Positions 6,364 to 25,251 of a DNA stretch of 25,251 bases are shown in pieces. The first letter of the stretch is position 1. Each line of letters opens with the position of its first letter. The position numbers were made by a program, and so were the translations under genes. Below the pieces are notes generated by a model, which was given only the letters and a program-made list of their open reading frames with translations, was not told where the DNA came from and searched no databases. Source of the DNA: a virus. The stretch is from the IMG/VR virus record IMGVR_UViG_3300042691_015260, positions 1 to 25,251 of that record. The stretch is one strand, 5' to 3'.

Positions 6364-7530
6364 TCATTTTAATTCAACTCCGTTCTTTTTAATTTTAATC
6401 GTTGGGTCTAACTTCTTCATTCTATCAATAATTACTTGACAATATTTCGGATCTAATTCCATTCCGTAACATTTTCGTTTAAGTTGATGTGATGCTACCA
6501 TTGTTGAGCCTGATCCGAGAAAACCATCAAAACAAATTTTAAATTCAAAATCTTTAAAAATATCACCGAATAAACCTACTGGCTTTTGCGTTGGGTGAAC
6601 TCTTGTTTTTCCTTCTATATTTTTATCCCCTTTTCTTATCATCCCATTCCATTGCCATTTATATAATTTAGCCGCTTTATTAAATGAAGTCCAAGCTAAT
6701 TCAACATCTGCAAAATTTCCTGTATTTTCTTTATCCCACACAATCCAACACATAGATGGATTCAGAAAATCTGTAAAATAATTCCCTCCCCAAATAACAA
6801 AATTTTCCATCCCTAAACTAACACAAGTTTGATAAAACTCTTTTGCGGTTTCAGTTGTATCATCTCCTATAATTTCAGAATAATTTTTAGCTTTTACAAT
6901 CTTACCACCGCCTACACTTCCAAAACCTTTGTTAACTCCTATTTTACTCCCTTGTACTACACTAATACCATAAGGGGGGTCTGTAAATACTAAATCAATC
7001 ACATTGTTATTCATTAACTTTGCAACTGAATCTGAATCCGTACTATCCCCACACAACAACCGATGCTCCCCGATTTCAAATAGATCACCTAAAACAATAT
7101 CCGTTTCAATACCACCTTCAGGCACATCAAAGTCATCTTCTTCAGCTTCTAAATGAGTTTCCATTTCAATAGGTAAATCTAATCCCCATTCTTCTAAACT
7201 TTCTGCATCCCATTCATTTGCTAAAATATCCCAATCCCATTCACCAAATCCAACATTGTCTTTAATTATAAATTCTTTTTGTTGCTCTTCTGTTAAATCA
7301 CTTGCTTTTACTATTGTTACTTCTTTCAAACCAGCTTCAATACAAGCTTTGTGCCTCATGTTACCTCCAAGTATAACCATTTCATCATTTACAACAATAG
7401 GTCTTAACTCAAGCATTTGAGGAAATTCTTTTATTGACTTGACTAATTTATGGAACTTGTCATCCTTAATTAATCGTGGATTGTTTGGATTGCTTTTTAT
7501 CGCAGTAATTTTTACTTTTTGGATTTTCAT
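6364..7530 (-). CDS. ParB-like domain / DNA (adenine-N6 or cytosine-N4) methyltransferase fusion
   Basis: A 388-aa two-domain protein. Residues 1-90 are a ParB/Srx-like domain: NPNNPR (14-19), GGNMRH (55-60), and a following helix with EEQQKEF. Residues about 140-388 are a beta-class amino-methyltransferase: catalytic DPPYG at 184-188, WGGNYF, a W..W.K segment, VHPTQKP, then the SAM-binding FDGFLGSGST near 335. It would methylate phage or host DNA on an exocyclic amine; ParB-type domains in such fusions are commonly linked to DNA binding. It lies directly upstream of the terminase pair and has its own promoter (7548-7578). Two further methyltransferases in the window share the DPPYG/WGGNY/HPTQKP order. 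Confidence 0.9.
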   Translation of the reverse strand: MKIQKVKITAIKSNPNNPRLIKDDKFHKLVKSIKEFPQMLELRPIVVNDEMVILGGNMRHKACIEAGLKEVTIVKASDLTEEQQKEFIIKDNVGFGEWDWDILANEWDAESLEEWGLDLPIEMETHLEAEEDDFDVPEGGIETDIVLGDLFEIGEHRLLCGDSTDSDSVAKLMNNNVIDLVFTDPPYGISVVQGSKIGVNKGFGSVGGGKIVKAKNYSEIIGDDTTETAKEFYQTCVSLGMENFVIWGGNYFTDFLNPSMCWIVWDKENTGNFADVELAWTSFNKAAKLYKWQWNGMIRKGDKNIEGKTRVHPTQKPVGLFGDIFKDFEFKICFDGFLGSGSTMVASHQLKRKCYGMELDPKYCQVIIDRMKKLDPTIKIKKNGVELK

Positions 7531-7734: not shown

Positions 7735-7830
7735 TTTGTCATTAATAATTTTAATTATTTGATATTCTAATTGTTTTGATGTTAACTAAGTCGCTATAAA
7801 TATTCGCTAAGATGTAAGTTAGCGGTAATG

Positions 7831-8079
7831 CTAAAACAACAAGTCAATAGTTTCTTTGTCGTAATATCTGACCGTGTTTTTACTTCCACAATTACCACAT
7901 TCATCATTAAAAGGTATATTACACCCTTCCATTCCACAATCCTTACACCAAGTAAAAACACTATGTATGTTCTTACCAACAAGTTCTTTTTCCCAAGCAC
8001 TACCGCTAACATTGGTTTGTGGCAAGTGCGGATGACGCTTTTTAATTATCTTTAGTTTTTCTAATAATCTTCGTATCAT
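7831..8079 (-). CDS. Zinc-ribbon-like small protein (82 aa)
   Basis: An 82-aa protein with four cysteines arranged as two CxxC knuckles (WCKDCG about residue 44-49 and CGNCGS about 61-66), plus an extra Cys in 'EGCN' between them, as in rubredoxin/zinc-ribbon domains. The N-terminus is basic (RRLLEKLKIIKKR). The ATG (8079) sits in the loop of an attC-like palindrome, and the first 20 or so codons contain that palindrome's second arm, so the N-terminal part may be an extension and the start is uncertain. No in-frame start is seen closer to the Cys region. It may bind nucleic acid, but that is inferred only from the ribbon. Confidence 0.6.
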   Translation of the reverse strand: MIRRLLEKLKIIKKRHPHLPQTNVSGSAWEKELVGKNIHSVFTWCKDCGMEGCNIPFNDECGNCGSKNTVRYYDKETIDLLF

Positions 8080-8137
8080 AATTTTAATTTTTGTGTTTCA
8101 AATTCCGCACCTGACCACAAGCCAAGTACCGTTATGC
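8004..8137 (+). repeat. attC-like palindromic site C
   Basis: Plus strand: box CGCTAAC (8004-8010), one base, arm TTGGTTTGTGG (8012-8022), then GTGCGGA (8026-8032). On the far side TCCGCAC (8104-8110), arm CCACAAGCCAA (8115-8125), five bases (GTACC) and box GTTATGC (8131-8137). The 11-bp and 7-bp helices are separated by a 3x4 internal loop; one pair is a G.T wobble at the fifth position. The site is 134 bases and begins 16 bases after the methyltransferase stop in transcription order. The strand given is the one that folds best, with the gene on the other strand. The palindrome is seen; its use by an integron integrase is inference. Confidence 0.55.
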
Positions 8138-8153
8138 GCAATGCCACAGCGTT

Positions 8154-8846
8154 TCAAAATAAAGTTTGTTGTGAAATTACGGCATTAAAGCGTTTTTCCT
8201 GCGCTTCAAAGTAGCCCTTATCTATTTCAAATCCCACAAAATCCAACTTGTGCTTATGCGCTGCAATCCTACTGCTTCCGCTTCCAACGTGTGTATCTAA
8301 AATCAAATTGCCTTCCTTCGCAAATCGGTTAAATATCCAGTCATATAAGTAAATTGGCTTCTGTGTGGGGTGTATTCGTTCCAAGCCATCTTTTGCATTA
8401 GCACCAACCCAACTCTTGGTTATTTTGCGTAATGCTCCATTATAGCTTGTCCAAGCTAATTCACCATCAGCAAAGTCATTTTCGCCTGTTCCTTTATCCC
8501 AAAATAACCAAGCACCTGTCGGCTTCAGGTATTCAGTCATATAATTTCCACCCCACACAATTTGATTTTTTGATACCCTAAACAACTGCTCCCAATATTC
8601 AGCAGTAGGTATTGCGTTATCCCAATCGGCTTCACCTCTGTAAATCTTCTTCTTGCCGTTACCAAGTTGCATTTTGTTAGCCCCAATTCCATAAGGTGGG
8701 TCTACTACTGCAATATCAAAATACCCATCGCTAAAACGCTTTAATGCCTCAGTGCAGTCTTCTAAATAAACTTTATTGGAAGGCACAGCGCATAACACGG
8801 GTTTTGCGTCATTGGGGTCTTTCGTTTTCAAATCAAGTTCTGTCAT
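8154..8846 (-). CDS. DNA methyltransferase, adenine-N6/cytosine-N4 type (230 aa)
   Basis: A beta-class amino-methyltransferase: VDPPYG at about residues 48-53, WGGNYM, 'DGELAWTSYN', HPTQKP, then SAM-binding LDTHVGSGSS near residue 190. It would methylate DNA, probably against host restriction. The conserved core starts at about NKVYLEDC (residue 24). The ATG at 8846 lies in the loop of palindrome B, and codons 13-19 are its second arm; GTG at 8786, just beyond the box, is an alternative start. A hand count of one 60-base line gave about 43% G+C against about 32% in the 218-aa paralogue at 11102, so it looks recently acquired. It is related to, but clearly different from, the two other methyltransferases in the window. 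Confidence 0.9.
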   Translation of the reverse strand: MTELDLKTKDPNDAKPVLCAVPSNKVYLEDCTEALKRFSDGYFDIAVVDPPYGIGANKMQLGNGKKKIYRGEADWDNAIPTAEYWEQLFRVSKNQIVWGGNYMTEYLKPTGAWLFWDKGTGENDFADGELAWTSYNGALRKITKSWVGANAKDGLERIHPTQKPIYLYDWIFNRFAKEGNLILDTHVGSGSSRIAAHKHKLDFVGFEIDKGYFEAQEKRFNAVISQQTLF

Positions 8847-8922
8847 ATTATTAAGTTTAGTTTTTCAAATGAGCTTTAGTGTTGGTAATCCCCAACGAAC
8901 GCAAAGCCCGAAAACGTTATGC
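8790..8922 (+). repeat. attC-like palindromic site B
   Basis: Plus strand: box GCATAAC (8790-8796), one base, arm CGGGTTTTGCGT (8798-8809), then TTGGGG (8812-8817). On the far side CCCCAA (8890-8895), arm ACGCAAAGCCCG (8899-8910), five bases AAAAC and box GTTATGC (8916-8922). The helices are 12 bp (one G.T wobble, again at the fifth pair) and 6 bp with a small internal loop. Total 133 bases, almost the same as site C. The stop codon of the 54-aa gene lies inside the far box, and the start of the methyltransferase gene lies in the loop. Confidence 0.6.
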
Positions 8923-9081
8923 ATCACCTTGCAGACGCTCCGAAACGTAATCCTTGACTATTTTTTTAATCGGCTCGACAAATTCAACACGGACACGGAA
9001 AGCAATAGTTTTTGTTTGGTAAGGAGCAGGTTTGCGACCTGCTCCTTTTCTTTTTCCGCCTTTTATTCTATTATTTTCCAT
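8917..9081 (-). CDS. Small basic protein, GAGRKP type (54 aa)
   Basis: A 54-codon frame whose ATG (9081) overlaps the end of the preceding gene by 19 bases and whose TAA lies inside the GCATAAC box of palindrome B. The protein has a basic N-terminus (KGGKRKGAGRKPAPY), then TKTIAFRVRVEFVEPIKK and a helix to the end. The GAGRKP.PY..kT..fRV pattern is familiar from small ribbon-helix-helix-like or HTH-like proteins of mobile elements; a strand 'TIAFRV' followed by helices fits a small DNA-binding regulator. This is inferred from pattern only. Compactness against the palindrome is typical of cassette genes. Confidence 0.7.
   Translation of the reverse strand: MENNRIKGGKRKGAGRKPAPYQTKTIAFRVRVEFVEPIKKIVKDYVSERLQGDA
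9021..9056 (+). terminator. Perfect hairpin with T-run on plus strand, inside a minus-strand gene
   Basis: AAGGAGCAGGT (9021-9031) and ACCTGCTCCTT (9037-9047) form an 11-bp perfect stem with a five-base loop, followed on the plus strand by TTCTTTTT. It has the form of an intrinsic terminator for plus-strand transcripts, yet it is within the coding sequence of the 54-aa gene, where it encodes KGAGRKPAP. It may be a coincidence of codon choice. Confidence 0.35.
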
Positions 9082-9269
9082 TTCCCATTTTTGATATTAT
9101 TTTCAAATCTATCATGCCCAACATAAAATTTTGATGAGCTTCTACCAGTTGAAGTCGTGTACTTACAGCCGGGTTGGTCTAAATTAATTCGCTTTTCTGT
9201 TACAGATGTAATAATGTAAGTATTATTAAATACTGTGTCAAAAATTTGTGTGTTTGCTATTGCTTTCAT
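9063..9269 (-). CDS. Small unknown protein (68 aa) of cassette-like region
   Basis: A 68-aa protein starting MKAIANTQIFDTVFNNTYI. It is mixed beta/alpha with 'TSVTEKRINLDQPG' and 'TGRSSSKFYVGHDRF', and has no recognisable motif. It resembles small 'conserved hypothetical' proteins that sit behind a strong promoter in the early regions of Bacteroidota phages. It is driven by the promoter at 9293-9323 and overlaps the 54-aa gene downstream, so the two probably form a unit. Function unknown. Confidence 0.6.
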   Translation of the reverse strand: MKAIANTQIFDTVFNNTYIITSVTEKRINLDQPGCKYTTSTGRSSSKFYVGHDRFENNIKNGKWKIIE

Positions 9270-9292
9270 TTTGTTTGTTTTTAATTATATAG

Positions 9293-9323
9293 CAAATATA
9301 CAACCTATTTTGATAACTGCAAA
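9293..9323 (-). promoter_or_regulatory. Bacteroidota-type promoter P2
   Basis: Minus strand: TTTG (9323-9320), 19 bases, TATATTTG (9300-9293), then a leader of about 20 bases to the ATG at 9269. From the -7 box to the start codon it closely matches the promoter at 15468-15499 (both read TATATTTGCT, TATAATTAAAA, ACAAACA, ATGAAA), and both share a further 17-base sequence upstream. Confidence 0.75.
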
Positions 9324-9365
9324 CTTTTTTCAAAGTATTTTTCATTTATTTTAAAAATAGTTTCT

Positions 9366-9382
9366 AACTTGCTGATAATCAA
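9366..9382. repeat. 17-base repeat with TGATTATCA core, copy 1 (copy 2 at 15521-15537)
   Basis: AACTTGCTGATAATCAA occurs here and, identically, at 15521-15537, each upstream of a strong minus-strand promoter (43 and 22 bases beyond the -33 box). The core TGATAATCA is an odd-length palindrome (TGAT, one base, ATCA) and occurs a third time at 7585-7593 near the promoter at 7548. It is a candidate operator. Confidence 0.5.
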
Positions 9383-9402
9383 CACGAAAAAATAAGGCGA
9401 AC

Positions 9403-9466
9403 GCATAACAGCAAATAAGCAAAACTCCGCTATCGCTACGCTTCGCCTATTTGCAAAACGTTATAT
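9403..9466 (+). repeat. attC-like palindromic site A (short)
   Basis: Plus strand: box GCATAAC (9403-9409), one base, arm GCAAATA (9411-9417). On the far side TATTTGC (9448-9454), five bases AAAAC, box GTTATAT (9460-9466). The boxes and the 1x5 internal loop are the same as in sites B and C; the loop is shorter (30 bases). In transcription order the far box begins 8 bases after the stop of the gene at 9475. Just outside, GTTATATCCATAAC (9460-9473) forms a further small inverted repeat. Confidence 0.55.
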
Positions 9467-9474
9467 CCATAACA

Positions 9475-10332
9475 TCATTTTAAAGGTTTTAAGTTATCGT
9501 ATGTTTTGCCCTGCTCTTTAAGTTTTAAAGTTAAGAATATTAAAGCCTGCGTTTTCAGATACCACTCAAAAGTTAAATTATTACTTTCAATTACTGATTG
9601 AACTATTGTTTCAAAACCTTTCGGGTCTGATTCTTTTATTTTAGACTTAACTATAAATTTATGATACCTTTCCTTTGCCTTTTGTTTTATTATTGCTTTG
9701 CTTTCATCTGAGAATGATATTTGAAAGTTATCGTATAGAAACATATAAATACTTGGTAGATGCATTACATTGTCATCGTGATTAACTACTGTATCAAATC
9801 GCTCACTTAATTTTTCAGTACAAATATTAAAAAAGTAGTTTGCTATTTCCATGTTTTTCTCAAAGAATTTATACACTGGCTTATTAGTTGTTTGAGGTAC
9901 ATTTTGAAATTTTAACCAAGCTTTTATTGATGCATCACGCTGTGGTGAATTAAAGTAACCTTTTATGAATTTACCAAAGGTAATTACTCCATAGCCTACA
10001 AAGTCCCCAAAATTACCAAATAAACCCATTTTAAAAGCACTTTGCAGTTCAGACATAGTTGCACCTTTATACTGCTCTAAAACTGTTTCATAAATAAAAT
10101 TAGCCACTTTTTTAGTTTGCTCATTATCTAAGTTGTATTTTTTGTTTTCACCTGATAATTCAATTGTATTAATTATTAAGGCAAATAACTTAGTTAAGGC
10201 ATCCTGTTTATCCATGTGGATAATCTTCTGTTCATTTTTAACTTGAATATACAGCCTTTGATATTCAGGTAGTTTCTGCATGGCTTCAACTTCTAAAGGT
10301 GAAAATCCATTTGTTGTCGTTATGTTACTCAT
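9475..10332 (-). CDS. Replication-associated protein of unknown function (285 aa)
   Basis: A 285-aa mostly helical protein in ATGA overlap with the putative replication initiator upstream. Around residues 105-125 it has 'GLFGNFGDFVGYGVITFGKFIKGYFNS', a Gly/Phe-rich segment (positions 104-130) that I associate with proteins next to replication initiators in Bacteroidota phages and plasmids. No Walker motif is visible, so it is not a DnaC-type loader by motif. The C-terminus is amphipathic helix (LIFLTLKLKEQGK). Gene pairing suggests help with replication initiation; this is an inference. Confidence 0.55.
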   Translation of the reverse strand: MSNITTTNGFSPLEVEAMQKLPEYQRLYIQVKNEQKIIHMDKQDALTKLFALIINTIELSGENKKYNLDNEQTKKVANFIYETVLEQYKGATMSELQSAFKMGLFGNFGDFVGYGVITFGKFIKGYFNSPQRDASIKAWLKFQNVPQTTNKPVYKFFEKNMEIANYFFNICTEKLSERFDTVVNHDDNVMHLPSIYMFLYDNFQISFSDESKAIIKQKAKERYHKFIVKSKIKESDPKGFETIVQSVIESNNLTFEWYLKTQALIFLTLKLKEQGKTYDNLKPLK

Positions 10333-10970: not shown

Positions 10971-11061
10971 AGCCCCTAAATGTTCGATTGACTTACGAGG
11001 TCAGTACAGCATCTACTCTGTACATCGAACATTTAGAGGCTAAATGTTTTTAATGTAGATG
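10971..11061 (-). ncRNA. Structured 5' leader of the replication gene (putative cis-regulatory RNA)
   Basis: Outer arms 10971-10988 and 11024-11041 form an 18-bp stem with one non-Watson-Crick pair (U.G on the minus-strand RNA). Exactly between them lie two hairpins with no unpaired bases: TGAC/GTCA (10989-11003) and GTACAG/CTGTAC (11004-11023), a perfect three-way junction. The arm segment 11028-11035 can instead pair with 11041-11048 (8 bp, five-base loop), and the second hairpin's loop (11010-11017) can pair with 11055-11061 (7 bp). The stem ends 15 bases before the ATG, followed by TTTT. A promoter lies just upstream. The architecture suggests a switching leader; I recognise no known riboswitch class. 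Confidence 0.5.
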
Positions 11062-11093: not shown

Positions 11094-11125
11094 CAAATAT
11101 ACTAAATTAATTTTAATTGTGCAAC
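11094..11125 (-). promoter_or_regulatory. Probable promoter for the replication genes
   Basis: Minus strand TATATTTG (11101-11094) with GTTG (11125-11122) 20 bases upstream: a perfect -7 and three of four bases at -33. It lies at the 3' end of the methyltransferase gene. Transcription would start near 11087, giving a leader of about 130 bases that contains the small hairpin ATCGG/CCGAT (11071-11089) at its very start and then the three-way junction. Confidence 0.5.
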
Positions 11126-11758
11126 ATGATTGTTAATTCTTTTTATTGCCTTATCAAAGTATTCTTTGTCTAATTCACAAGCTGTTAATTCAAAACCATA
11201 ATCATGGCATGCTATTGCTATTGAGCCACTACCTAAATGGGTGTCAAGTATTTTATCCTCTTGCTTTGCATATTTGTCAAGGAGCCATTTATAAAGTTCT
11301 TTTGGTTTTTGTGTTGGATGTATTTTTTCATCTCCATTATTTATATAAGCATCTGCTCTTGACATTGAAAATATTTTAAAAGTATTAAATGAAGTTTTCG
11401 CTAATTCTCCGTCTTTAAAAGTTCCACTTCCTAATTTATTCCAAATAATAACACCGCTTAAATCTATATCAAAAAAATAGTTGCCGCCCCAAATAATTTG
11501 ATTTTTACTAACTCTAAATAATTCGTTAAAATACTCTTTGCTTGGTATTTCATTATCCCAGTTTGTTAAATGATATTTTTTATAAGTTCCTGCATTTTTT
11601 GTAAAACCTTTTTTATTACCTAATTTATTTTGAATTATATCTGCGTTAATCCCATACGGAGGGTCAACAATAGCCAAATCAAAATATTTATCTGGGTATC
11701 TTGCCATTAAAACCATGTTATCTTCATTAGTAATTTCTATTTTATCAGTTAATTTCAT
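11102..11758 (-). CDS. DNA methyltransferase, adenine-N6/cytosine-N4 type (218 aa)
   Basis: A beta-class DNA amino-methyltransferase: VDPPYG at residues 31-36, WGGNYF near 92, 'DGELAKTSFN', HPTQKP near 147, then LDTHLGSGS (about 170) for SAM. It is the same size and motif order as the protein at 8154-8846, but with the base composition of the surrounding phage genes, which suggests it is the older resident. Its start (ATGA) overlaps the stop of the 94-aa gene upstream. Expected to modify phage DNA and protect it from host restriction, or to change gene expression; the target sequence cannot be read from the protein. Confidence 0.9.
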   Translation of the reverse strand: MKLTDKIEITNEDNMVLMARYPDKYFDLAIVDPPYGINADIIQNKLGNKKGFTKNAGTYKKYHLTNWDNEIPSKEYFNELFRVSKNQIIWGGNYFFDIDLSGVIIWNKLGSGTFKDGELAKTSFNTFKIFSMSRADAYINNGDEKIHPTQKPKELYKWLLDKYAKQEDKILDTHLGSGSIAIACHDYGFELTACELDKEYFDKAIKRINNHVAQLKLI

Positions 11759-21873: not shown

Positions 21874-22479
21874 TTAATATAAATCTTTATAATCTACCCA
21901 CTTGTTTAATATAGTACTTTGATTAGGTGGATGCAAAACAAGTTTTTCTTTTGTTTTAAACCATTTTAGTTGTGGCATTAAGCCAGCAATGTAAGTATCA
22001 ATTTGTTTTTCTTCGTTTTCTATTTCTTGAAGTATAATCGGAATTGCCGATTTATTTACTATGTAACCATAACCGCCCCAACTTGCAAAACACTTATTTA
22101 ACATAATTGAATAATTAACTGTACTTCCATTAGGTGAATAACCACCTAAGTGGATGCCATCCCAATCTTCAGGCAATTCTTTTAAACAATCTTTTAATTT
22201 ATTAATAAAGTCATCTGTAAAATCAACGTCATCTTCTAAAATAAAAACACTCTCCAAACCTAAGTTCAAAGAGTGTTGAAGTATTGCCTTATGACTGCGA
22301 AGCGTTGCTATTTCAGTCGGCAATAAAAAACCATTATGATTTATACCTTCGGCTTCTGTTGCCTTCCACGTTTCCGCTTTGATTCCTGCTCTTTCGGAAT
22401 TTCTTCTGAATTGTTTTCTCCTACCTGCAGAGGATTGTAAGTTAATGCAATAACATTTTCCGATATTTGCTCGAAAGTT
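21874..22479 (-). CDS. Glycosyltransferase family 25, N-terminus in the -1 frame of the upstream gene
   Basis: A GT25 (LPS/collagen-type) glycosyltransferase. The C-terminal part, with FILEDDVDF (DxD-type), ELPEDWDGIHLGGY, SWGGYGYIVNKSA and ending 'PPNQSTILNKW', is open from a TTG at 22323. But the family's N-terminus CYCINLQSSAGRRKQF...AGI...KATEAEGI lies upstream in the same frame (22458-22326), overlapping the 110-aa gene. This frame has no ATG, GTG or TTG between its upstream stop (TGA 22506-22504) and CYCINL; only ATT/ATC. A -1 slip at A AAA AAA (22485-22479) would join it to the 110-aa gene. The exact start is therefore unsettled; coordinates give the slip-joined reading. Confidence 0.75.
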   Translation of the reverse strand, partial: NFRANIGKCYCINLQSSAGRRKQFRRNSERAGIKAETWKATEAEGINHNGFLLPTEIATLRSHKAILQHSLNLGLESVFILEDDVDFTDDFINKLKDCLKELPEDWDGIHLGGYSPNGSTVNYSIMLNKCFASWGGYGYIVNKSAIPIILQEIENEEKQIDTYIAGLMPQLKWFKTKEKLVLHPPNQSTILNKWVDYKDLY

Positions 22480-22673
22480 TTTTTTTCTTCCTGTAATTGT
22501 GCATCATACAAAGGATTCAATTCAATCAAATGCCCCTGACCACTAACAAACATTAAGTTTGCAAAGTAATCATTAAAGTTTAAATGATTTACTAAAACAT
22601 CATTTCCTGATTTATCTTTTGTAATAATATCACAAGTAATAAATTCTTGTTTAATTTTAAATTTTAAATTCAT
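22341..22673 (-). CDS. Unknown protein (110 aa), possible frameshift partner of GT25
   Basis: A 110-aa protein starting MNLKFKIKQEFITCDIITK, with an N-terminal beta part and an unstructured basic tail (SKRKRGRQQKPKV, a KRGRxxKPK form common at the ends of phage proteins). No family recognised. It starts in an ATGA overlap with the SAM methyltransferase. Its last 46 codons overlap the GT25 N-terminus in another frame. The tail looks real in zero frame, so this seems to be dual-coding DNA, not a plain frameshift mutation. Confidence 0.65.
   Translation of the reverse strand: MNLKFKIKQEFITCDIITKDKSGNDVLVNHLNFNDYFANLMFVSGQGHLIELNPLYDAQLQEEKKTFEQISENVIALTYNPLQVGENNSEEIPKEQESKRKRGRQQKPKV
22479..22485 (-). 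promoter_or_regulatory. Putative -1 frameshift site A AAA AAA before GT25
   Basis: In the 110-aa gene the codons are GAA GAA AAA AAA ACT, so A AAA AAA is in phase for -1 slippage; the -1 frame continues into the GT25 domain 14 codons before its conserved INL. The A-run is nine long, so a sequencing indel must be excluded. A weak stem (TTTC.GA with TC.GAAA) starts one base downstream; I do not regard it as convincing stimulation. Confidence 0.45.
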
Positions 22674-23242
22674 AATCTTTTTAAAATAGTTAATCCGTTG
22701 TTATTTGTATATTGTCTGTAAATATACCAATCTTTATTTGCTTCTAAAAATTCATTTACAGCTGGCATCAATCCTTTTTTGTTTTCCGTTTGGTAGTTTT
22801 CCATGATTTCAGGAGTTTGCCAATCAGTCGGTTCATCACTTGCCCCATAAGTAGTTGTATCATGAAGCACGATGTATTTTTTCGCTTTATAGCCATGTTT
22901 AAACAATTCTTTTTTAAGTTGTGAGTAAATATGTAAGGTATCAATAAAAAGTAAATCAGTAGGCTCTATATCAATTTTAAGCGTATCTGCTTGTATGAAG
23001 TTCCAATTAGGATAAGCATTTAAAGCAATATCAATGTTTGGATGAATATGTAAATCTATTCCTATTAAAACACTTGGGTTTCTGTACATAAAAGCCCATG
23101 TGCTAACAACTGAACGCACTCCCATTTCTGTAATGTGGCTACATTCTTTTGCTAAATCGTAAAGAACTTCTAAATGTTCGTTTATATCACTTGGAGTTTT
23201 ACAAGCTTGTTGGTAATTGTCTCTAATTAATAATTGATTCAT
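22670..23242 (-). CDS. SAM-dependent methyltransferase, class I (190 aa)
   Basis: A 190-aa Methyltransf_24/cephalosporin-hydroxylase-like protein. SAM-binding strand I is 'HITEMGVRSVVSTWAF' (about residues 36-51, E-x-G-x-R form), strand II 'LIGIDLH' (Asp for ribose), then 'FIQADTL', 'LLFIDTLHIYSQLKKEL' and 'IVLHDTTTYG', the metal-binding D/H set of the family. It is placed in the middle of a glycosyltransferase cluster, so it probably methylates a sugar or a surface glycan and not DNA. It overlaps the gene upstream by 20 bases. Confidence 0.85.
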   Translation of the reverse strand: MNQLLIRDNYQQACKTPSDINEHLEVLYDLAKECSHITEMGVRSVVSTWAFMYRNPSVLIGIDLHIHPNIDIALNAYPNWNFIQADTLKIDIEPTDLLFIDTLHIYSQLKKELFKHGYKAKKYIVLHDTTTYGASDEPTDWQTPEIMENYQTENKKGLMPAVNEFLEANKDWYIYRQYTNNNGLTILKRL

Positions 23243-23975
23243 ATTGCTTTTTTATTTCTTTTACTTTTTTATATTCTGTTTCTAAATTCATTTCTTTAAT
23301 CAAATAATAAAATTGTGAATTTTCTTTTATTAATCCTTCATAATTATGTTTTTTAATAAATTCTTTTACAAAATCATTATCATTTAATAAATGAATATTA
23401 TCATTATGTTTCCATGTATTTTTATGAGTTGATAAATGCCTTTTACATTGGTTAATTGTCAAGTAACCTATATCTATTGTTTCAGCAATATATTTATCTT
23501 TTGTATAATCATTTATGCCTTCGCCAATATAAGCACCGTCACCAGTATATTTATAATAAGCATTTCTGCCAATTGCATTAACTCCAAAATAAGAATAACC
23601 ACATAAGTGAAATAATTTAATATGTAACAATCCTAATGCTTTTGTTTTATCTAAATTTTCTTTAATACAAAATTCATTTATTACTTGTTTACCTAATTCA
23701 GTTATAATAATATCTGCCTGATTCCAAATAACAAAGTCCACAGATTTATCCAAAAAAATATCTTCAATACATTTATTTTGAGCAATTGAAATATCTATTG
23801 GTTCATTAATTTTATGGTTTATTATTTTAGATTCTATTCCTTTTGACTTTAAATAATTGTAATTTTTTTCATCTGAACAATAAATAATTAAATCAGAAAA
23901 TTTTGACAATAAAAACTCCAAAGGGTAATTTATTTCCTCTTGGTTATCCACGTATGTAGCGTGTTTAATTATCAT
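23223..23975 (-). CDS. Glycosyltransferase-like protein, GT-A type (250 aa)
   Basis: A 250-aa protein with the order of a GT2-like fold: 'LIIYCSDEKNYNYLKSKGIE' (residues 29-48), a central helix 'SIAQNKCIEDIF' followed by 'DFVIWNQADIII', the position where GT2 proteins carry 'DaDe'. Here it is QAD, so the metal motif is atypical. C-terminal segments 'YTGDGAYIGEG' and 'RHLSTHKNTWKHND' might hold acceptor-side residues. The last codons and next start contain a 28-base direct repeat shared with the gene upstream. Glycosyltransferase is inferred from fold rhythm and neighbours. Confidence 0.55.
   Translation of the reverse strand: MIIKHATYVDNQEEINYPLEFLLSKFSDLIIYCSDEKNYNYLKSKGIESKIINHKINEPIDISIAQNKCIEDIFLDKSVDFVIWNQADIIITELGKQVINEFCIKENLDKTKALGLLHIKLFHLCGYSYFGVNAIGRNAYYKYTGDGAYIGEGINDYTKDKYIAETIDIGYLTINQCKRHLSTHKNTWKHNDNIHLLNDNDFVKEFIKKHNYEGLIKENSQFYYLIKEMNLETEYKKVKEIKKQYESIIN
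23239..23266. repeat. 28-base direct repeat, copy 1 (copy 2 at 23972-23999)
   Basis: The two copies differ at one base (T/G at position 21 on the plus strand). Each covers the EIKKQY end of a surface-cluster gene and the ATG of the next gene. It suggests a duplication or recombination seam between the two gene ends. Confidence 0.7.
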
Positions 23976-24567
23976 ATTGCTTTTTTATTTCGTTTACTTG
24001 TTCTAAAGTTAAATATTTTTCGATTGCATGATAGCCTAAAGTTCCTAAATGGTATTGAGTTTCACAGCTAAATTTATTTGCAACTTCTACTGGTGCAATA
24101 TTTAATTTTAAAAAGCTACAACCCCACGCATAAAAAACGTCTTCATTCATATCAGTTTCAGGATTACAAACGTCTAATATTTTTAACATTGCAGATTTAT
24201 GCCTAAATGATAAACCACCATTTCCAACAAAAGGGTGAAAATTCCAACATGCTCCAATATAATCATATTGGTAAAAATCTTCAATCCCTTCTCTTAATAA
24301 CCTGCTATCTTCTTGAAATATTAATATATTTTCCTCTTTTATTTTATTCCAAAATTCAATTGATTTTAAAAGCTTGTTATATCCTCTAATATCATTTATT
24401 TCTACTACATGAAATTCACAATTAAGCATTTCTTGTAGGTGCCTATTATCTTCTGTGCTAAAAATATAAAGCTTTGTATATTTAGGTAAGTAATATAAAT
24501 GCTCTGTTATAACCTGATATAAACTTAACCTTCTTGTTTCGACTATTACCGCTGCTAATTCATGCAT
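23965..24567 (-). CDS. DUF5672-like glycan-related protein (200 aa)
   Basis: A 200-aa protein with the core of DUF5672: 'NILIFQEDSRLLREGIEDFYQYDYIGACW' spanning residues 79-107, then 'GNGGLSFRHKSAML' and 'NEDVFYAWG'. The form 'iliFQ.DS.l.r.gIe.fl.yDYIGApW....vGNGGlSlRrk..ml' with a downstream 'EDvff' is that family, which is found in surface-polysaccharide clusters and is thought to be glycosyltransferase-like. The ending YLTLEQVNEIKKQYDN is partly shared with the next gene. Starts 64 bases after the previous stop; a 26-codon frame lies in that gap. Confidence 0.8.
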   Translation of the reverse strand: MHELAAVIVETRRLSLYQVITEHLYYLPKYTKLYIFSTEDNRHLQEMLNCEFHVVEINDIRGYNKLLKSIEFWNKIKEENILIFQEDSRLLREGIEDFYQYDYIGACWNFHPFVGNGGLSFRHKSAMLKILDVCNPETDMNEDVFYAWGCSFLKLNIAPVEVANKFSCETQYHLGTLGYHAIEKYLTLEQVNEIKKQYDN

Positions 24568-24635
24568 AGTTGTATTGTATATAATTTACATTTCCAAACT
24601 TCAAATATTCCATCATAAAAATGATAAATTATCAT
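24555..24635 (-). CDS. Very small frame (26 aa), doubtful
   Basis: ATG at 24635 forms an ATGA overlap with the stop of the upstream GT2 gene; after 26 codons it stops inside the start of the DUF5672-like gene. The peptide begins MIIYHFYDGIFEVWKCKLYT. It could be a real leader peptide that keeps ribosomes moving between the two genes, a remnant, or chance. Confidence 0.25.
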   Translation of the reverse strand: MIIYHFYDGIFEVWKCKLYTIQLCMN

Positions 24636-25251
24636 ATTAAAGTTTTGTCAAAATTAGGATGTTTTTTAAGAAAATCAGGCATTTTATTTTTATCAAATTT
24701 AACAGCATTCCATAGGTTTATTGAAACTGGATGCAAATCACCAAAGTTATTTTCTGGAGTCCATTTGTAAAATACTTTTTCTAAATAATCAGCTTTAATT
24801 TCATTAGCATGTCCAAAACATGAGTATTTATATTCCATTACCGCTTTACTTTGTGCTGTACTAAAATGATAAATAGTTAAAGGGCAGTTTAAATTCTGTA
24901 ATGAATTATGATTATTTAAATTCTCAATCCTTATTGGTCTGAAACCGTCCAAACAAACATAATCAAAACACCTCCAAAAGTTAAGATAGCCATTTATTCC
25001 ATAATACCTTTCATTATGCGTATAAGCGTAATTTAAAGCATTATTTATTTCTGTAGGCTCAAACACTTCGTCCGCATCAATAGTTAGTATTAAATCAAAT
25101 CCTTGTGAATATTTTTTTGCCACACTTCTATGTATATTTTCTGCTCCATAAAATTCAGCTTCATCCCAAATTAATTTATTTCCTAAAACTTCCTCACAAA
25201 CTTTTCTAATATCTTCTGCTTTGTCAGGACAATTCAAAATTGTTTTAAATC
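24632..25251 (-). CDS. Glycosyltransferase family 2-like, 5' end outside window
   Basis: The frame is open through the window edge (reading in from F-K-T-I-L-N-C-P-D), so the TTG at 25237 is not its real start. The part seen (206 codons) has 'GFDLILTIDADEVFEP' (DxD-type metal motif), then 'RYYGINGYLNFWRCFDYVC', 'RPIRIENL' and 'YHFSTAQSKAVMEYKYS', the order of GT2 proteins of the beta-glycosyltransferase type that end with a HFS/W.h region. It is the first of five surface-modification genes. The N-terminal nucleotide-binding part should lie upstream of the window. Confidence 0.85.
   Translation of the reverse strand, partial: FKTILNCPDKAEDIRKVCEEVLGNKLIWDEAEFYGAENIHRSVAKKYSQGFDLILTIDADEVFEPTEINNALNYAYTHNERYYGINGYLNFWRCFDYVCLDGFRPIRIENLNNHNSLQNLNCPLTIYHFSTAQSKAVMEYKYSCFGHANEIKADYLEKVFYKWTPENNFGDLHPVSINLWNAVKFDKNKMPDFLKKHPNFDKTLI

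Follow-up and report, generated by a model that had tools for sequence, protein, structure and literature searches.

A putative array of integron-type cassettes with reversed gene orientation in a Bacteroidota phage

In canonical integrons only the bottom strand of an attC site recombines, between the C and the A of the R' box; a G usually adjoins the AAC, and the cassette gene lies on the other strand (Bouvier 2009). IntegronFinder 2.0 finds only few integrons in Bacteroidetes. Parts of integrons have been reported from 21 phages, along with cassettes that carry methyltransferases and with functional tests of attC x attI1 (Qi 2023, PMC9892861). Here we analyse positions 1-25,251 of the viral IMG/VR record IMGVR_UViG_3300042691_015260 (the window, 25,251 nucleotides, to which all coordinates refer). 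An earlier note, made from the letters of this DNA alone, had seen three attC-like palindromes in it and proposed integron-type cassettes captured by a phage, something it thought rarely if ever described. The last opinion is outdated, as the 21 phages show. The proposal itself is borne out by covariance model matches and by the attC-like bounds of the segments, and we read 9460-7819 as an array of three integron-type cassettes at one docking site of a Bacteroidota phage, with a probability of about 85%.

Sites, docking site and cassette boundaries

Site A (9403-9466, 64 nt, of a short attC type), site B (8790-8922, 133 nt) and site C (8004-8137, 134 nt) are all on the minus strand. They share TAAC and GTTA boxes, spacers of 1 and 5 nt and paired arms; B and C each have a second inner helix, plus a T/C difference at position 5. 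Positions and anatomy are as the earlier note had described them. In the palindrome-and-box score built for this analysis, B reaches 36.1, C 32.5 and A 27.7. The null, defined as the best score per window in 300 dinucleotide shuffles, has a median of 20.3, a 95% point of 24.2 and a maximum of 30.6, and only one shuffled match overall was at or above the 27.7 of site A. Moreover, the covariance model (CM) R1, trained on 23 sites from other phages and on none of A, B and C, matches the three on the minus strand only, with 45.5 bits for A (E 5.6e-8), 103.8 bits for B (E 1.1e-20) and 88.8 bits for C (E 2.1e-17), the next-best score in the window being 19.8 bits. Folding as single-stranded DNA also favours the minus strand for all three (-10.2 vs -4.5, -20.4 vs -16.5 and -21.7 vs -17.5 kcal/mol).

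In the alignment of the 23 sites 88.8% of the cells are paired, and covariation is 0.667, while shuffles give 0.156 and slid controls no more than 0.123. The hairpin is thus kept in structure, not in sequence, with an unpaired central spacer of 5/1 nt. Of the box consensus RYYYAAC/GTTRRRY, the GTTA and YAAC parts are near invariant and the outer three bases variable; A, B and C have one mismatch each to its strict form. A G follows the AAC in 113 out of 119 sites, and the crossover point AA|C lies at 9461/9460 in A, at 8917/8916 in B and at 8132/8131 in C. Judged by anatomy, folding and model matches, the three palindromes are attC-type recombination sites. Scans of the window recovered 0 Rfam matches and no tRNA.

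The docking region was compared by means of 28 relatives of gene 10332-9475. One half of it lies at 7776-7822 and reads, on the plus strand, GATGTTAAC(T)AAGTCGCTATAAATATTCGCTAAGATGTAAG|TTA.., with CGCTA directly repeated 13 nt apart. The other half, TGATGTTATGGATATAA, is found on the minus strand at 9461-9479, where it overlaps and follows the stop codon of gene 10332-9475. In the related stretch L132 the two halves are contiguous and give an empty site (..GATGTTATGAATATAA|CTTACATCTTAGCGAATATTTATAGCGACTTATTTAACATC...), whereas in the window they are parted by the array, at 9461 and 7818. The same empty form, ..GATGTTATGAATATAA|CTTACATC.., is present in L132, L233, L237, L250, L261, L265, L276, L277 and L282, and the array is inserted exactly at the TAA|C of this conserved site. 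In L130 and L131, whose neighbour gene is 98-99% identical, a segment like unit 1 of the window (see below) stands alone at the docking site; in L134, L141 and L147 this ATATAA|C is occupied by different cassettes. When IMG/VR is searched with a pattern of the right half, 67 stretches are recovered, most of which are the docking site in its empty and filled forms; at array ends it is conserved in tens of stretches. The docking site has only chance matches among 50,697 phage records. It appears to behave like attI, and we consider it a putative attI-like site. A candidate fourth attC-type site near 7784-7828 turned out to be this docking site and has no hairpin.

Where a cassette begins and ends can be read from other genomes. 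Among IMG/VR relatives of the methyltransferase encoded at 8154-8846, the 95% match of L002, L003 and L004 to the window is confined to 8920/21-8128/31, amid unrelated flanks; this is the segment from the TAAC box before site B to the TAAC box before site C. A 19-base piece of site B recurs across 47 IMG/VR stretches, and there, with few exceptions, the sequence to the left of the site is unrelated until YAACG is reached; the genes that follow the site vary (N6/N4 and C5 methyltransferases, HNH-type and others). The exact site B pattern gave three matches in 85,000 bacterial and archaeal genomes, two by chance and one real, in a Bacteroidetes metagenome-assembled genome (MAG); the exact site B is therefore mainly phage-borne. 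The segment that carries site C recurs in L285 at 81% identity, with another left flank and another docking-site variant, and there the arms of the homologous site are altered yet still complementary. Finally, a leader homologous to that of the first cassette and a gene like its ORF 9081-8917, ending in TTAA|CTTACAT, occur in L130 and L131. All junctions, as read from the sequence, fall at YAA|C(G), and the shared segments run from the box before a site to the box after a gene. The mobile unit is therefore a site followed by a gene.

This divides the array, on the minus strand, into unit 1 (8917-9460; site A with ORFs 9269-9063 and 9081-8917, of no assigned function), unit 2 (8132-8916; site B with an N6/N4 DNA methyltransferase, 8846-8154) and unit 3 (7819-8131; site C with ORF 8079-7831, 82 aa, of no assigned function). 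A Bacteroidota-type promoter, TTTG-N19-TATATTTG, is seen at 9270-9330 upstream of ORF 9269-9063, and unit 1 may carry its own promoter. Presence or absence of these segments in related phages had been set by the earlier note as a refutation test, and the outcome is in its favour, since related phages gain and lose exactly these segments.

Cultured Flavobacterium phages show the same in closely related isolates. The virulent isolates hemulen6-1 and filifjonk9-1 each carry about 14 sites, and all of these lie on the gene strand. Within the 14-16 kb compared, pairs that are otherwise 97.7-100% identical are set apart by one clean segment, namely mumin6-1/6-3 (+506 bp), sniff9-1/9-2 (+439 bp), hemulen6-1/stinky9-1 (+1181 bp) and snork6-1/6-2 (+342 bp). 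In the four pairs each differing segment consists of one or two units of a site and then a gene, and the junctions have 6-16 nt of shared sequence, each with YAAC. LMO9 phages that plate poorly on LMO6 are reported to lack a specific methyltransferase (Nilsson 2020, PMC7077304). The methyltransferase of the 1181-bp hemulen segment, found in 27 Flavobacterium phage records including those of phages isolated on LMO6 and absent from morran9-1, lillamy9-2 and stinky9-1, would be this specific methyltransferase.

These comparisons bear on two readings that involve no integron. The palindromes could be RNA structures, such as terminators, processing signals or translation controls, that mark gene borders, the differences between genomes arising by homologous recombination. 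Phages are mosaic, and with start codons in the loops (see below) the arms could control translation. Such structures do not account for near-identical pairs that differ by a single segment with junctions of 6-16 nt and YAAC, for the unrelated flanks of more than 40 copies of site B, or for the fact that the same site type forms arrays with other-strand genes in bacteria, so we hold this reading to be extremely improbable. The units might also be single-strand elements of the HUH or IS200-IS605 kind that insert 3' of TAAC by a hairpin end, in keeping with the one-ended hairpin and with junctions that have a fixed tetranucleotide. Yet a matching GTTR box follows every hairpin at fixed spacing, the two boxes pair, and the bacterial arrays are accompanied by a tyrosine recombinase; no HUH gene was noticed among the array ORFs, although no search was aimed at HUH. 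We give elements of this kind hardly any chance. Integron-type cassettes remain the reading we prefer.

Gene orientation and start codons inside the sites

The orientation of gene and site is where the phage arrays depart from the textbook. In phage arrays 110 out of 115 genes lie on the folding (bottom) strand, whereas in bacterial arrays of the same site type, which are accompanied by XerA-like recombinases, only 5 out of 58 do and 53 are canonical (Fisher p 1e-32). Arrays with IntI, used as a positive control for the scoring geometry, have other-strand genes at 31/32 sites and in 24/29 intervals. In a canonical cassette the gene is on the top strand and is read towards attC; the phage cassettes are the other way round. 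Taken together, the boundaries, folding and model matches say that the phage cassettes are reversed, with the site first and the gene second, and that the folding strand is the gene strand.

The earlier note had assumed the canonical layout, in which the gene comes first, attC follows at once and the plus strand, opposite to the gene, folds. In favour of it, a gene does stop just before each first box, the sequences of the boxes and the sizes of the sites fit attC, and clusters of attC sites lacking an integrase (CALINs) are known from phages. The position of these gene ends is thus as the note had it, but the gene that ends there is not the partner of the site: it is the following gene that travels with it. 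In independent genomes the border of the unit lies at the box in front of the site and not at the one behind it, and the unit runs to the box after the gene. Moreover, both the CM and folding choose the gene strand, and bacterial arrays show the opposite orientation. We therefore judge canonical cassettes to be very improbable here.

A reversed layout places the 5' end of the gene next to the hairpin, or within it. The methyltransferase of unit 2 (8154-8846, minus strand; Pfam PF01555) starts at 8846, inside site B, so that its first 19 codons are the hairpin loop and the 3' arm, and its N-terminus MTELDLKTKDPNDAKPVL is encoded by the site. Likewise, ORF 8079-7831 starts inside site C. The arm of the site B family can be read in two frames, as M..PNDAKPVL or as M..APMTQNHCYT, and in other genomes both leader frames run into differing proteins exactly at the GTTA box. 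Overall, 56 of the 110 phage-array genes on the folding strand start inside the preceding site. A comparison of starts inside sites to random windows (40% vs 29%) proved a poor test, since random windows fall inside genes, and was replaced by an interval count. We infer that the leader encoded by the hairpin arm is translated as the N-terminus of the protein; the arm in hemulen6-1 would be predicted to give a peptide such as MNDIFNENVSLKTETPAFAKHVLPAV.

The candidate recombinase and a proposed mechanism

Neither a tyrosine recombinase nor an IntI integrase is encoded in the window, in agreement with the earlier note, and PF00589 has no match in 27 of 30 array-bearing phage records or in five cultured phages. 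When 118 genomes from the phylum of the Bacteroidetes MAG were sampled and searched with the CM, 53 had the same site type, and the bacterial arrays adjoin relatives of a recombinase encoded by one phage, G016. At XerA-like loci 26 sites were found in 13 out of 20 loci, compared to 0-2 in eight rounds of shuffling, and 15 other bacterial loci have no such sites. In the 12 loci in which polarity could be read, the docking end of the array faces the recombinase. In G016 itself about 50 nt separate the array end from the start of the recombinase gene. Its product is below the cut-offs of both the XerA and the IntI models (162 bits vs an IntI cut-off of 265) and is without about 42 residues present in IntI4, the IntI-specific insertion. 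In a phylogenetic tree the XerA-like enzymes flank a single IntI clade. Within IMG/VR the relatives of the G016 recombinase are only its own near-copies. Thus, a XerA-like enzyme supplied in trans by the host is the most likely recombinase.

Two loci are of note. In L166 (6581-9455), a 71-kb viral record, a XerA/IntI-like recombinase is encoded about 50 nt from the end of a reversed array of three sites; by gene content and layout this is a complete phage-borne integron-like platform. In the bacterial G088 (C1:112610-141935; L351, L352) about 20 sites over 30 kb lead to a XerA-like gene at 146596, an arrangement that we recognize as a large undescribed integron-like array.

A classical host IntI could instead move the same cassettes. 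Of the 396 genomes in the same sample of the phylum, 105 have an IntI that exceeds the family cut-off, and IntI1 is reported to be able to recombine attC sites from other virulent phages, one of them a Polaribacter phage (Qi 2023, PMC9892861). But the site type of the phages adjoins XerA-like genes, and the only phage platform that encodes an enzyme, G016, has a XerA-like one. Moreover, IntI arrays in the sample score weakly under the same CM, with 35.9 bits at best compared to up to 110 bits in arrays of genomes with XerA-like genes. Movement by IntI is thus rather unlikely, and we favour the XerA-like enzyme. The low-GC IntI genomes L214, L215 and L225 have no such sites.

Several observations weigh against our reading. 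The training sites of the CM were chosen by their palindrome score, which biases the pair counts towards structure. The extra-helical bases that canonical sites have on the R''-L'' arm of the bottom strand were not found in canonical form: B and C have a single extra base, on the R'-L' side, and most sites show a conserved mismatch and a G.U pair instead. Of 94 viral sites having a clear neighbour gene, 24 have the larger ORF on the other strand. The link to the XerA-like enzyme is an association by neighbourhood, and 7 out of 20 XerA-like loci have no site nearby. Finally, site A is absent from L130 (5856-6520), where the sequence is GATG|TTATGCGTTCGCC and a single GTTATG stands in place of two. 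Site A is lost there between two copies of GTTATG, a junction that the simple one-strand picture does not predict and that suggests a crossover at the other box, a top-strand event.

A mechanism can nevertheless be proposed. Phage replication would expose the minus strand, which would fold into the hairpin; a tyrosine recombinase would take this single-stranded form and cut it at AA|CG. The cassette, a circle-type unit that combines a gene with a hairpin site (about 64-134 nt), would then be linked, in fixed orientation, with either the docking site or a further site. The enzyme, acting in trans, would most likely be a XerA-like relative of IntI, of the kind found with arrays of this site type in Bacteroidota chromosomes. 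With insertion fixed in orientation and the region read leftward, the phage would therefore keep reversed cassettes. Only these would be expressed, and those that start in the hairpin would be expressed wherever they land, which would account for the difference between phage and bacterial arrays. The payload genes are largely DNA methyltransferases; turnover of cassettes would therefore probably change which host restriction systems the phage can pass. If true, this would be a plug-in system that swaps anti-restriction genes within phage populations, and would explain the rapid divergence in methyltransferase content among close phages, a known cause of host-dependent plating. It would also mean that a DNA recombination hairpin doubles as a coding start. 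All this is directly testable, since cultured phage pairs one cassette apart and their hosts exist.

The main genes of the window (terminase, portal-like, methyltransferases and amidase) are all on the minus strand. GC is 0.40 over 8001-9000, compared to about 0.30 across most of the window. The phage backbone is rich in methyltransferases: two more N6/N4 methyltransferases are encoded at 6364-7530 and 11102-11758, of which one is a fusion with a ParB N-terminal domain. An 18-nt inverted repeat (AGCCCCTAAATGTTCGAT / ATCGAACATTTAGAGGCT, 94%, arms 35 nt apart) at 10971-11041, in the space that separates gene 11102 from gene 10955, is without TAAC/GTTA boxes at its ends. A run of glycosyltransferase-like and sugar/methyl-transferase-like genes, unusual cargo for a phage of this size, occupies the end of the record (21874-25237).

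Comparison with known systems

Phage CALINs, for example that of Polaribacter phage P12002L, are likewise methyltransferase cassettes bounded by attC in phages without an integrase (Qi 2023, PMC9892861). The main text of that study mentions neither start codons inside sites nor reversed cassettes, and we did not find in it a docking site, gain/loss pairs or a link to XerA-like enzymes. Two short sites that our scan picked in P12002L likewise lie on the gene strand; a reversed layout may therefore have been there, unremarked. The Baltic Flavobacterium phages of the genera Lillamyvirus and Muminvirus have the same reversed arrays, of up to about 14 sites; their description mentions neither integrons nor cassettes (Nilsson 2020, PMC7077304). 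A search of the phage collection did not recover the docking site that the window phage has. More broadly, the openly searchable literature yielded no description of reversed start-in-attC cassettes, phage docking sites, single-cassette isolate pairs or XerA-like integrons.

Chromosomal integrons of the sedentary kind, which have IntI (Vibrio, Shewanella), share the attC geometry, the bottom-strand G after AAC, the arrays and an integrase beside the attI end. They differ in that their genes lie on the other strand and in that IntI has an insertion of about 40 aa, which the XerA-like enzymes are without. The bacterial XerA-like arrays resemble those of the phages in their match to the same CM, in sites of about 132 nt and in arrays of up to at least 10 sites. 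They differ by their canonical genes (53/58) and by a recombinase encoded beside the array. We favour, with some reserve, the view that a separate XerA-like integron lineage spans the Bacteroidota and is exploited by virulent phages through integrase-less docking sites with reversed, start-encoding cassettes. This would bring a second recombinase family into the integrons, and do so in a phylum in which they had been considered rare. Clusters of attC sites and methyltransferase cassettes in virulent phages, and the use of such sites by IntI1, were already reported in the 2023 study. The reversed start-in-attC design, the phage docking site, the link to a non-IntI recombinase and the one-cassette differences between isolates appear to be new.

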